From: Streptomyces decoyicus
GTDB taxonomy: Bacteria; Actinomycetota; Actinomycetes; Streptomycetales; Streptomycetaceae
DNA length: 64,000 bases
NCBI RefSeq assembly: GCF_019880305.1
Contig: NZ_CP082301.1
Location: forward strand, 3,658,001 to 3,722,000
Direction: 5' to 3'
Shown here: positions 42,808 to 46,665 of the stretch, piece by piece
Layout of the letters: every line of letters begins with the position of its first letter
Numbering within the stretch: position 1 is the stretch's first letter
Notes under the pieces: model-generated
The model's database searches: none
The model's input: the letters and a program-made list of their open reading frames with translations, nothing else
Told to the model about the DNA's origin: nothing
Position numbers and translations under genes: made by a program

Positions 42808-45753
42808 ATGGACGACAGTCCGGGGCAGGGGCGGGAGCGGCTCCGCTTCTCCGTGCTCGGTCCCGTGCGGGCCTGGCGCGGCGAAACACCGCTGGCGGCG
42901 GGGTCCCCGCAGCAGCGTGCGTTGCTTGCCGCACTGCTGCTGCGCGGCGGGCGTACCGCCACCGCACCCGAGCTCGTCGACGCGTTGTGGGGCGACGAAC
43001 CGCCGCACGCCGCGCTCGCCGCGCTCCGTACGTACGCCTCAAGGCTCCGCAAGGCGCTCGGCGATGACGCCGCCGCCCTGGTCAGCGAGTCCGGCGGCTA
43101 CGCGATCCGGTCGGTGGACGGCCGCCCGCTGGACCTCGACCACGACCATGCCGAGCAGTACGCGGCCGAGGCCGAGAAGGCCAAGGCCGCCGGTGACCGC
43201 GGCCGGGCCCGCGAACTCCTCGACGCCGCGCTCGCGCAGTGGGACGGCGAACCGCTGGCCGGCCTCGCCGGTCCGTACGCCGACACCCAGCGCACCCGCC
43301 TCGACGAGTGGCACCTGACCCTGCTGGAGACCCGCCTCGAACTCGACCTGGAGCTCGGGTGCCACGCCGAGGCGGTCTCCGAGCTGACCGCCCTCACCGC
43401 CGCTCACCCGCTCCGCGAGCGGCTGCGGGAACTCCTCATGCTCGCGCTGTACCGCAGCGGCCGGCAGGCCGAGGCGCTCGCCGTCTACGCCGACACCCGC
43501 CGGCTGCTCGACGAGGAACTGGCTGTCGAGCCCTGCGCCTCGCTCTCCGAGCTCCAGCAGCGGATCCTCCGGGCCGACCCGGAGCTGGACGCACCCGTCA
43601 TCGTCAGCTTCGACGCGAACACCAGCGGCCCCGCCGTGGTGCGCCCGCAGCAACTGCCCGCCACCGTCGCCGACTTCACCGGCCGCGCCGCCTTCGTCTC
43701 CGAACTCGGCGATCAACTCGCCACCGCCGAGGGCAGCGTCATGGCCGTCTCGGCGCTCACCGGCATCGGCGGCGTCGGAAAGACCACCCTCGCCGTCCAT
43801 GTCGCCCACGCCGCGCGCGACCACTTCCCCGACGGGCAGCTCTACGTCGACCTCCAGGGCGCCGGGCACAACCCCTCCCAGCCGGTGGCCGTCCTCGGCG
43901 CCTTCCTCCGCGCCCTGGGCACGCCCGACGCCTCCATCCCCGACGGCCTGGCGGAGCGCTCCGCCCTCTACCGCTCCACCCTCGCCGGCCGACGTGTCCT
44001 GGCACTGCTGGACAACGCCCGGGACGCCTCCCAGGTCCGGCCGCTGCTGCCCGGTACGGAGGGCTGCGCCGCGCTGGTCACCAGCCGCGCCCGGATGAAC
44101 GACCTGGCCGGTGCGCACCTCATCGATCTCGATGTGATGAGCCCGGAGGAAGCGCTCTCCCTCTTCACCCGGATCGTCGGCGAGGAGCGCGTCACCTCGG
44201 AGCGGCAGGCCGCCATGGCCGTCGTCGGGGCCTGCGGCTTCCTGCCGCTGGCCATCCGTATCGCCGCCTCCCGGCTTGCCGCCCGCCGTACGTGGACGGT
44301 CTCCATCCTGGCGCGCAAGCTCGCCGACGAGCGCCGCCGCCTGGACGAACTCCGCGCCGGCGACCTCGCCGTCAAGGCCACCTTCGAACTCGGCTACGGC
44401 CAGCTGGAGCCCCAGCAGGCCCGCGCCTTCCGCCTGCTGGGCCTGGCCGACGGGCCGGACATCTCGCTTGCGGCGGCGGCCGCCATCCTCGGCCTGGACC
44501 CTGACGCCGCCGAAGGCCTCGTCGAGTCCCTTGTCGACGCCAGTCTTCTGGAATCCGCCGCCCCCTGCCGCTACCGCTTTCACGACCTGGTGCGGCTGTA
44601 CGCGCGGGACTGTGCGGAGCGTGATGAGCATCCGCCGTCGGAGCGCGACGCGGCGCTGTCGCGGTTGTTGGACTTCTATCTGGCCACGGCCACCCAGGTA
44701 TACGCACTGGAACGGCCCGGCGACCGGCTGGTCGACCATGTGGCGACGCCGCAGCACCAGTGCGGCCTGAAGTTCCAGGACTCCACGGTCGCACTTGAGT
44801 GGCTGTTCAGCGAGGCACGCTGCCTGCTCGCCTGCGCCCAGCAGTCCGACAGCCCAGCCTATCTGCGGCGTGCGGTCGACCTGTTGCTGGTCACCCGGGA
44901 TCTGTCCGAGTCCGGCGCCGACGCGTTGCAGTACGCCCAGGCCAACACCCTTCTGCTCGAAGCCGCCCGCAATGCGGAGGACCAGCTGGCCGAGGCCCGC
45001 GCCCACACGGCGCTGGCGGCGGCCCACACGCTCGCCGGTCGCCTCGGCCAGGCTGAGGAGCACGCCAAGTCGGCGATGTTGCTGGGCCTGGCAAGCGGAG
45101 ATCCGTTCTCTACCTCCAATGCGCCCAATGAGCGGGGCATCATCGCGGGTTCCCAGCAGCGGCATGCCGACGCCGAGGCATATCTCGATCAGGCGCTGGC
45201 AGCCTTCCGCGCCGACCACAACAAGCAGTCCGAGGCCAGTGCTCTGTGCAATCTCTCCCGCGTCCATCTGAACTCCGGGCGGGTCGAGAGCGCCATTGCG
45301 TTGGCAGCGGACGGCATCGCCATCTATCGCGAGTCGGGAGCGACCCGCCGGCTTCCCAACGGAATGTACGCGCTGGCGATGGCCTATACCCGTGCCGGGC
45401 GGCTGACCGACGCCACCGATCAGCTTTCCGAAGCTCTGGCGATGTTCCAGGCGAACCGGCAGCGCTTCTGGGTGGCGATGACCCACTTCCGGCTGGCCGA
45501 GGTCAGCATTGCCGACCACCGGCCGGCTGACGCCGCCAACCGCGCCGAGCAAGCCCTGACCGCGTTGCGCGGCGTCGGCGGAGAATGGTGGCGTGCCAAC
45601 ATGCTGACCCTGCTGGGGCGAGCGTTGAACGAGATAGGGCACACCCGCCGCGCCCGCGTGTGCTGGCAAGAGGCCCTCTCCGTCTACGAGGGCCTCGGCT
45701 CCCCGGAAGGCCGTGAAGTCCAAGCGCTGCTGACGCACGTATCGTTCGCGTGA
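42808..45753 (+). CDS. afsR: AfsR-type SARP regulator: winged helix, BTAD, NB-ARC, TPR
   Basis: 981 residues from ATG 42808 (AGGTGG five bases upstream). Domain order: OmpR-type winged helix about 12-100 (LRFSVLGPVRAWRGE, SPQQRALLAALLLRGG), BTAD 105-255, NB-ARC with Walker A GIGGVGKTT at 319-327, and C-terminal TPRs (about 680-975). Architecture and length match AfsR of Streptomyces coelicolor, about 990 residues, a global activator of antibiotic synthesis phosphorylated by AfsK. The AfsS-like gene lies immediately downstream, as in S. coelicolor, and an AfsK-like kinase is 9 kb further on. AfsR activates afsS by binding its promoter. Confidence 0.85.
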   Translation: MDDSPGQGRERLRFSVLGPVRAWRGETPLAAGSPQQRALLAALLLRGGRTATAPELVDALWGDEPPHAALAALRTYASRLRKALGDDAAALVSESGGYAIRSVDGRPLDLDHDHAEQYAAEAEKAKAAGDRGRARELLDAALAQWDGEPLAGLAGPYADTQRTRLDEWHLTLLETRLELDLELGCHAEAVSELTALTAAHPLRERLRELLMLALYRSGRQAEALAVYADTRRLLDEELAVEPCASLSELQQRILRADPELDAPVIVSFDANTSGPAVVRPQQLPATVADFTGRAAFVSELGDQLATAEGSVMAVSALTGIGGVGKTTLAVHVAHAARDHFPDGQLYVDLQGAGHNPSQPVAVLGAFLRALGTPDASIPDGLAERSALYRSTLAGRRVLALLDNARDASQVRPLLPGTEGCAALVTSRARMNDLAGAHLIDLDVMSPEEALSLFTRIVGEERVTSERQAAMAVVGACGFLPLAIRIAASRLAARRTWTVSILARKLADERRRLDELRAGDLAVKATFELGYGQLEPQQARAFRLLGLADGPDISLAAAAAILGLDPDAAEGLVESLVDASLLESAAPCRYRFHDLVRLYARDCAERDEHPPSERDAALSRLLDFYLATATQVYALERPGDRLVDHVATPQHQCGLKFQDSTVALEWLFSEARCLLACAQQSDSPAYLRRAVDLLLVTRDLSESGADALQYAQANTLLLEAARNAEDQLAEARAHTALAAAHTLAGRLGQAEEHAKSAMLLGLASGDPFSTSNAPNERGIIAGSQQRHADAEAYLDQALAAFRADHNKQSEASALCNLSRVHLNSGRVESAIALAADGIAIYRESGATRRLPNGMYALAMAYTRAGRLTDATDQLSEALAMFQANRQRFWVAMTHFRLAEVSIADHRPADAANRAEQALTALRGVGGEWWRANMLTLLGRALNEIGHTRRARVCWQEALSVYEGLGSPEGREVQALLTHVSFA

Positions 45754-46030: not shown

Positions 46031-46261
46031 ATGGCTACCGAGAACAAGCCACAGTCCGACGAGCGAGACATCGTCAAGCCGATGGACAGCCACATGCCGA
46101 TCACCGGGACCAACGTCACCAATCCCGATGAGCGGGACATCGTCAAGCCGATGGACAGCCACATGCCGATCACCGGCCCGCGTGGCACCAAGAAGGACGT
46201 CGTCGAGACAGGTGGCCCGGCACCGCGCAACACGCCCCTGCCTCTCGGCGAGCCCAAGTAA
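46031..46261 (+). CDS. afsS: AfsS-like small regulatory protein with DSHMP repeats
   Basis: 76 residues; ATG 46031 with AAGGAG six bases upstream. Hydrophilic, no signal or membrane part. It contains two 23-residue repeats, each DERDIVKPMDSHMPITG plus six variable residues; the DNA repeat period is 69 bases (46057 and 46126). S. coelicolor AfsS is a 63-residue protein with repeated D-N-H-M-P motifs, encoded directly after afsR and needed for AfsR-driven antibiotic production. Position and motif support the assignment, though here the core is DSHMP and only two copies are present. How AfsS works is not settled. Confidence 0.78.
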   Translation: MATENKPQSDERDIVKPMDSHMPITGTNVTNPDERDIVKPMDSHMPITGPRGTKKDVVETGGPAPRNTPLPLGEPK

Positions 46262-46346: not shown

Positions 46347-46470
46347 GCATTTCTCCACTCCGGACGATGGCATGCCCGGAAACCCCGGCCAGAAGCCCAA
46401 ACATCCGCCCTCGTGTGCCGAAATTTTGCTAACAAATAGAACAATGTTCCTTTGCGATACAGGAGTTGAA

Positions 46471-46665
46471 GTGACCTACAAAAAGAAGGCTCTGATCGTC
46501 GGCGCGCTCGCGCTCTCCGCGTTCGGGGGCGCCACCGCACCCGCCCTCGCCGACAGCCACACGCCCGCTCCGCCGCACTCCGTGGTCGTCCCGGACAACC
46601 ACATGCCGGTGATACCGAGCGACAGCCACCTGCCGCTGGCGCCCCTCGACAGCCACACCCCCTGA
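46471..46665 (+). CDS. Secreted small peptide with AfsS-like D-(S/N)-H-x-P motifs
   Basis: 64 residues from GTG 46471, AGGAG five bases upstream. Residues 1-27 form a Sec signal peptide (KKKALIVGALALSAFGG, cut probably after ALA). The 37-residue mature part carries four motifs: DSHTP, DNHMP, DSHLP and DSHTP, separated by Pro/Val-rich linkers. The DNHMP motif is the one described for S. coelicolor AfsS. It follows afsS by 209 bases and has its own AT-rich upstream region. I know of no described function; it may be a paralogue derived from afsS by gaining a signal peptide. Confidence 0.75.
   Translation: MTYKKKALIVGALALSAFGGATAPALADSHTPAPPHSVVVPDNHMPVIPSDSHLPLAPLDSHTP

Follow-up and report, generated by a model that had tools for sequence, protein, structure and literature searches.

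What does a small secreted protein that carries the motif of AfsS do next to afsS itself? The question is raised by a window of 64,000 nucleotides from the single-contig, 8.63 Mb genome of Streptomyces decoyicus, in which afsR, a gene in the position of afsS and the gene of the exported protein follow one another on the + strand, with an AMP-binding ligase from 46833. The first of these genes (42808..45753, +) encodes a STAND regulator of 981 amino acids with SARP, NB-ARC and TPR parts (Pfam BTAD, NB-ARC, TPR), in which Trans_reg_C/BTAD and then NB-ARC lie N-terminal of the TPR region. It scores 1596.8 bits against NCBIfam NF053617, above the curated cut-off of 1430, and its identity with AfsR of S. 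lydicus and other named Streptomyces reaches 82% (best segment). It also matches, below cut-off, the NB-ARC/TPR models NF041717 and NF040586, which concern HaaT of cyclophane RiPPs and the FxSxx-COOH system, so that the reading of peptide tags is possibly a common theme of TPR domains of the AfsR, HaaT and FxSxx-COOH types. The second gene (46031..46261, +) encodes 76 amino acids without a signal peptide and with two copies of DSHMP. As its product scores 12.7 bits against the NCBIfam model of AfsS (NF053616), below the cut-off of 60 bits, we assign it through synteny and motif; the exported protein, at 13.9 bits, is below the cut-off as well. The model thus misses the AfsS of the window by a wide margin, a statement that applies to this one scored locus, and given how hypervariable the motif is, annotation may overlook AfsS generally.

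The exported gene (46471..46665, +) has a GTG start 717 nt beyond the stop codon of afsR and 209 nt beyond the end of the intervening afsS-position ORF, and is preceded by the ribosome binding site AGGAG (46461..46465, +). Its 64-residue product consists of a signal peptide (residues 1-27, MTYKKKALIVGALALSAFGGATAPALA) and a mature part of 37 residues (DSHTPAPPHSVVVPDNHMPVIPSDSHLPLAPLDSHTP). By inspection and a simple script the signal peptide is of the Sec type, with the n-region YKKK, a hydrophobic core and an ALA cleavage site. Four motif copies, all on the + strand and joined by mostly Pro-containing linkers, occupy the mature part: DSHTP opens the predicted mature protein (46552..46566), DNHMP (46594..46608) and DSHLP (46621..46635) follow, and a second DSHTP forms the C-terminal five residues (46648..46662). 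Every one of the four is exactly one residue off the DSHMP of the neighbouring AfsS. ORF, ribosome binding site and layout thus bear out the original prediction, which had described an exported protein of this size with four AfsS-like motifs behind afsS. Further upstream lies a candidate promoter-like element, AAACATC ... GCTAAC (46399..46433, +), picked out by eye from the relatives and weak in the window itself, where it is a degenerate form of CGAACA-N14-20-TAnnn[T/G]. This one pattern is found upstream of the exported gene at 21 of 72 loci, and TCGAAC at 28 of 72. The probable promoter region also holds the palindrome GTTCGA-N5-TCGAAC, exactly at three of the 72 (L148, L150, L156) and in relaxed form at five.

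Exported AfsS-motif peptides are a patchy but real family in Streptomyces. The search for homologues that had been proposed along with the prediction recovered the same layout in other Streptomyces, with frame and ribosome binding site kept across loci (the latter being a preference of the search), which is more than chance. With the exported protein of the window as query, 53 of 392 genomes of the genus gave a match at E<=0.01, the weakest rows being doubtful. A profile (A2) matched 43 of 394 genomes of the family at E<=1e-7, including two outside the genus (L330, L331) with a different protein; together with L290 and L292 these were set aside as another protein family, which we take to be rodlins, and a Pfam scan of the L290, L292 and L330 proteins returned no family name for any of the three. 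A more permissive profile (A1; 115 of 392 genomes at E<=1e-3) probably picks up many plain signal peptides among its weaker rows, since many of these sit in long reading frames. AfsR itself is above its cut-off in 378 of the 392 genomes. The linkage with afsS, likewise part of the prediction, holds: afsR is present in 55 of 60 regions chosen for an exported-peptide hit, and the exported gene lies downstream of it in 52 of the 55. We call the family patchy because the frequency of the exported gene varies with the choice of loci. It is found in 19 of 39 named loci collected by similarity to the AfsR of the window, and in 1 of 30 and 1 of 80 loci taken by AfsR score, within roughly 1.3-1.7 kb downstream; its rarity in these last two samples argues that it is dispensable for AfsR-AfsS. 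In all, 210 loci were scanned, five of them without afsR (L166, L170, L179, L180, L199); among the 205 afsR loci, a biased sample, AfsS was called automatically in 199 and an exported gene in 74. Close pairs of exported genes differ by 7 synonymous and 5 replacement changes in 48 codons (L156/L165) and by 5 and 8, respectively, in 67 codons (L152/L153), and constraint on the residues is therefore modest and the gene fast-evolving. Motif-repeat exported peptides also occur away from afsR or with no AfsS in reach (L322 of G685, L166 of G097, L293 of G051 and several contigs of G371). The exported word of L322, DNHAS in three copies, is unlike the DIHAT of the AfsS in the same genome (L317), and the L166 peptide has an extra C-terminal stretch.

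The motif of AfsS is uniform within a gene and variable between species. Among 193 AfsR-distinct loci we count 66 types, most often of the form [D/N/E]-x-[H/N/T/G/P]-x-[P/T/S/G], for example DNHAT, DMHAT, DQHAT, DSHMT, DNHAS, NTHAT, DGHIP, DSNRP, DSTRP, DNGMP and DHYVS. Since the repeats within one AfsS use different codons where their residues agree (codon identity 0.47 for P and 0.53 for T), this uniformity is maintained at the protein level. Motifs were called by script, with three motif strings and three AfsS proteins corrected by hand and the 17 motifs of the replication set assigned by hand; only 2 of 217 AfsS proteins hold the motif fewer than twice (L082, L175). At L103, AfsS has seven DNHVQ repeats and the exported candidate is short and very divergent, with DNHIW. 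For S. coelicolor AfsS, a 12-residue segment repeated three times is described in PMC2267785, and an afsS primer pattern derived from that paper matched 0 of 100 genomes.

How does the exported word relate to that of the AfsS beside it? We compared 89 AfsS/exported pairs, 72 non-redundant discovery pairs and 17 replication pairs from genomes outside the discovery set. Two duplicates among the 74 exported hits were removed, and L162 was excluded as it has no usable signal-peptide start. The replication pairs came from a pool of 49 loci, the remainder being discovery genomes, duplicates, members of the other family or loci with AfsS or the exported gene out of reach (L291, L293, L296, L309, L320, L322, L327, L328). 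L316 and L318 (both AfsS DHHQT, exported DFHQT) were left out as a copy and a near-copy of L095, and so was L320, which belongs to the same genome as L076 (AfsS DSHRP, exported DSNIP) and would count as 3/5. The exported word follows its own AfsS but avoids identity with it, and is almost always one residue off. Minimum mismatches of 0, 1, 2 and 3, that is, best matches of 5/5, 4/5, 3/5 and 2/5, were found at 1, 74, 11 and 3 of the 89 loci (the last being L054, L148 and L158), where a binomial distribution of the same mean expects 23 loci without mismatch (P=7e-11). The replication loci taken alone gave 4/5 in 15, 3/5 in two and neither 5/5 nor 2/5 in any. Counted once per AfsS motif type (n=52), the best copy has one mismatch in 45, two in five, three in one and none in one. 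AfsS proteins of different species compared with each other at an AfsR distance of 0.12-0.16 (520 pairs) are identical in 33%, one off in 47% and two off in 19%. The sole 5/5 locus, L248, is a weak profile hit, and even there the preceding residue differs (ADNHAP / SDNHAP).

Single loci illustrate the tracking. AfsS and exported motif are DHHQT and DFHQT (the latter ten times, L095), NLHVT and NVHVT (L191), NAHVT and NGHVT (L182), DNHMP and DNHAP (L302), DSNRP and DNNRP (L074, S. rimosus; also L184), DNGMP and DNPMP (L163), DNPMP and DNSMP (L186) and, at 3/5, DHYVS and DHFIS (L096). Matches to the own AfsS average 3.81 of 5, as compared to 2.54 with shuffled partners (72 pairs, 5000 shuffles, maximum 2.875). 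When shuffling was confined to AfsR clusters, p<=0.0002 was obtained at p-distances of 0.20-0.29 and p=0.063 at the tightest, 0.15. Against the nearest relative with a different motif, the own AfsS is the better match in 35 cases, tied in 32 and worse in five. Deviations in the discovery copies fall mainly on position 2 (55) and position 4 (54), followed by positions 3 (11), 5 (9) and 1 (3). Given a best match of at least 4, identity occurs with the own AfsS in 1 of 60 (1 of 75 with the replication loci) versus 161 of 1694 with the AfsS of other loci. With one random copy per locus, an independence test is of moderate strength over all five positions, expecting 8.1 identical loci where 0.5 are seen (P 0.002; 0.03 with one locus per cluster), and weak when confined to positions 2 and 4 (median p 0.05). 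As a Fisher test on copies pre-selected at >=3 matches is inflated by that choice, we rely on the locus counts over the 89 loci, and because the sequences are related, all P values for tracking and avoidance are descriptive only.

The same comparison bears on the suggestion, made with the original prediction, that the peptide binds metal through its four His. A mature N-terminus of the form D/E-x-His, together with further His residues, would make an ATCUN-type Cu/Ni site, and His does stand at mature position 3 in 58 of 89 proteins (cleavage site placed by script) and is invariant in the first alignment of 21 sequences. The wider set led us to drop this idea: the AfsS motif is without His at 12 of 89 loci, the exported motif has lost it too while its remainder still tracks (L074, L163, L184, L186, L188, L198, L325), and His at mature position 3 is absent in L163, L186, L188, L198, L325 and L074. 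This loss from both proteins in some lineages disfavours metal binding, and we consider it highly improbable as the function of the family; as 6 of the 12 loci keep His at mature position 3, it may have a separate role in loci whose AfsS motif lacks His.

If the AfsS word is so variable between species and so uniform within each gene, what reads it? Our covariation analysis suggests that it is the TPR sensor domain of AfsR. When mutual information was calculated between the motif positions and 488 variable AfsR columns in 193 sequences, the top columns lay nearly all in the TPR region (775, 697, 742 and 738 for position 2; 781 and 782 for position 4), with 928, 782, 893 and 891 leading for position 5. 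The 30 columns that couple most strongly in sum are all beyond residue 600, though 196 of the 488 variable columns are at or before it. With a tree of AfsR residues 1-640, z exceeds 3 in 100 of 249 TPR columns, as compared to 0 of 112 SARP and 0 of 98 NB-ARC columns. Linkage must be weighed here, because afsS sits directly 3' of the end of the TPR-coding region. The AfsS motif needs 72 steps on a tree of the TPR DNA versus 126 on the SARP or NB-ARC trees, and 82 versus 129-130 when the TPR tree is built from third positions. Since the motif follows the TPR-DNA tree over 193 loci, the 3' half of afsR (AfsR residues about 641-981) and afsS seem to be exchanged as a cassette, with motif and TPR-coding DNA apparently co-inherited.

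Could shared ancestry and linkage then account for everything, so that both small proteins drift along with their locus, recombination tracts produce the TPR association and there is no common receptor? That the third-position tree tracks the motif speaks for such a view, as do features of AfsS outside the motif, which also couple to TPR columns with top z values of 2.9-4.2; for three unrelated ones (residues 4 and 5 and the C-terminus), 15-17 of the 20 best columns likewise fall in the TPR region, at lower z. On the TPR tree, SARP and NB columns also couple to the motif, 13 of 225 to position 5 and three to position 3. Yet the strongest couplings are at the motif itself (top z 4.2-7.2 by position, and 3.7-5.9 for the motif-flanking residues), none of 32 synonymous TPR columns exceeds z 3 on the TPR tree, and residues 721-850 fit the motif in 72 steps as against 79 for residues 851-981, which lie nearer afsS. 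On the TPR tree, couplings remain at 775 (12 seen, 2.9 expected), 742 (16 versus 5.3) and 887 with position 5 (6 versus 0.4). The mismatch counts between AfsS and exported words are also far too uniform for drift. Linkage is thus real but, as the sole cause, leaves the strongest couplings unexplained in the TPR-DNA tree, the synonymous control and the comparison with non-motif features, and we give this explanation only a slim chance.

We therefore return to the TPR domain as the reader of the motif. The arm and TPR superhelix of AfsR (residues 600-981; 44605..45750, +; AlphaFold2 mean pLDDT 94.9) is the candidate receptor by its covariation with the AfsS motif, and residues 697, 738, 742, 771, 775, 781, 782, 803, 887, 891 and 928 (window numbering) are candidate contacts. 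Helix A of the TPR units prevails over helix B among the top 20 columns of the mutual information analysis (11 versus 3, p=0.0055), an enrichment not seen in the tree tests. At positions 2 and 4, AfsR columns pre-chosen for their coupling to AfsS inform more on AfsS than on exported residues in 10 of 10 cases, and the lower information on the exported word would fit a weaker or antagonistic ligand. The covariation of exported word with AfsS, and of AfsS with the TPR domain, is consistent with the proposal in the original prediction that the peptide is a signal or is connected to the AfsR system. A 2024 study in PLoS Biology reports that the SARP domain of AfsR is under inhibition by NOD and TPR, and calls it elusive whether an inducer binds the sensor (PMC10936776).

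Is a TPR domain of this kind suited to hold a peptide? AlphaFold2 models built from 66 aligned AfsR C-termini give a confident TPR superhelix, which matches MalT domain III with Z 24.4, eight Rap entries with 19.6-24.1 and NprR with 22.1 and 23.4; the Rap chains carry Phr-type pheromones such as RRGHTAS, RGHTS and CSF. Other close chains are CRL2-APPBP2 with a short degron (Z 28.8), APC/C subunits and LGN with peptides. As TPR superhelices match widely (835 of 959 chains at Z>=8, the best not being pheromone receptors), we take the match as evidence of feasibility, not of function. As in the Rap-Phr and RRNPP systems of Bacillus and phages (PMC3601965), a small exported protein, here a putative pro-peptide, has its gene next to that of the proposed receptor; the short peptide signal and the TPR superhelix that would bind it are further likely parallels. 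The PhrC peptide ERGMT of that source and the Phi3T pheromone RGHTS look similar to AfsS-type motifs, for example NRHTT, DGHTT and DNGMP. Different from RRNPP receptors, which start with an HTH or, in Rap, a three-helix bundle, AfsR is a STAND protein with SARP and NB-ARC ahead of the TPR; in contrast to Rap-Phr, the motif also occurs in several copies in a cytosolic protein, AfsS, from whose version the exported one stays a single residue away. By analogy, the module would work like an RRNPP cassette but without the RRNPP receptor architecture. AfsS, or AfsR2, of S. coelicolor and S. lividans resembles the exported protein in its motif repeats and its place after afsR and differs from it in lacking the Sec signal peptide and the one-off motif. 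MalT of E. coli offers the STAND logic and a helical-repeat sensor, domain III, though what it senses is maltotriose whereas for AfsR we propose a protein motif.

But why would a secreted word be held one residue away from that of its own AfsS? One answer accepts AfsS and the TPR domain as a ligand-receptor pair and leaves the exported protein outside, acting on neighbours or serving as a decoy directed at competitors whose AfsS it resembles, its similarity to AfsS arising by repeated re-derivation from afsS. In keeping with this, 40 of the 72 discovery peptides include a five-mer identical to the modal motif in the AfsS of one locus or another, as compared to 1 of 72 for the own locus; with so few residues allowed per position, however, many near-misses will equal the motif of some species by chance. 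Nor is there an overall codon sign of re-derivation from, or gene conversion with, the adjacent afsS, shared residues having 1831 codon matches among 2446 where 1813 are expected (own versus between loci, Ile and Thr are higher, Gly and Glu lower). We consider this answer unlikely. A further possibility is that the peptide works inside the cell, before or instead of export, the new pre-peptide or leaky cytosolic copies titrating AfsR and the signal peptide merely clearing it. It would follow the same groove logic, and the mature part of merely 14-92 residues (median 34) suits it. In two alignments of exported proteins, however, most of the nearly invariant columns are in the signal peptide, suggesting that export matters, and we hold such an inside role to be quite improbable.

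We put at about even the chance that AfsS is a cytosolic motif ligand of the AfsR TPR domain, with the exported protein as a Phr-like pro-peptide that yields a one-off competitor. The sequences show the gene family, its linkage to afsR-afsS, the tracking that avoids identity and the covariation of AfsS motif residues with the TPR domain; from these we infer direct binding of motif and TPR domain, processing and re-import as for Phr, and whether the effect is positive or negative. AfsS would present several copies of the cognate word to the TPR groove in the cytosol, as maltotriose is presented to MalT. The pro-peptide would leave via Sec, as its sequence indicates and like Bacillus Phr precursors, and processing would release near-cognate motif copies, mostly changed at position 2 or 4. 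These may return via a peptide permease, by analogy to RRNPP (PMC3601965), or alternatively act before export. Judging by the covariation, a near-cognate peptide would occupy the same groove less well or non-productively, competing with AfsS and tuning the output of AfsR, for example by cell density. The exported peptide is more likely an antagonist of AfsR than an agonist. Enterococcal pheromone and inhibitor pairs, such as cPD1 and iPD1, provide a precedent in which a near-miss peptide blocks self-response, with another receptor and in another host. Going further, it is possible, though we lean against it, that the module forms a strain-typed peptide code for antibiotic control, in which the AfsR TPR is set by the five-residue AfsS word, receptor half and word pass between species as a cassette, and a secreted word one letter off the own lets AfsR distinguish the inner signal from the outer one.

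Extra afsS is said to act without afsR, and a view of AfsS purely as an AfsR ligand leaves this action unexplained. A review has AfsS act by binding upstream of the act and red regulator genes (PMC6988585), and AfsS may combine this role with that of a ligand; an obvious DNA-binding site is absent according to PMC2267785, and in vitro AfsR activates afsS transcription without AfsS, as stated in PMC10936776.

We take afsS of S. coelicolor to be SCO4425, so that SCO4424 adjoins it by number. The original prediction knew of no description of such a peptide, which needs amending in one respect: SCO4424 is tabled as a 'possible secreted protein', an entry without motif or function (PMC3897704). Among the literature matches listed, mostly from open-access journals and without preprints, we found no description of an exported AfsS-motif family or its function, of the one-residue rule, of the TPR covariation or of AfsS as a ligand of AfsR.

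Antibiotic production has in AfsR-AfsS a classical switch of global reach, and the covariation points to the AfsS motif as a candidate ligand of its sensor, together with candidate contact residues and predicted specificity swaps. Signalling in Streptomyces is known mainly for butyrolactones; through a secreted near-cognate word it would gain a further layer made of peptides, which would offer a cheap handle on silent clusters. If true, the strain-typed code would supply the missing inducer of AfsR and a class of peptide quorum sensing in Streptomyces that is built on a STAND receptor.
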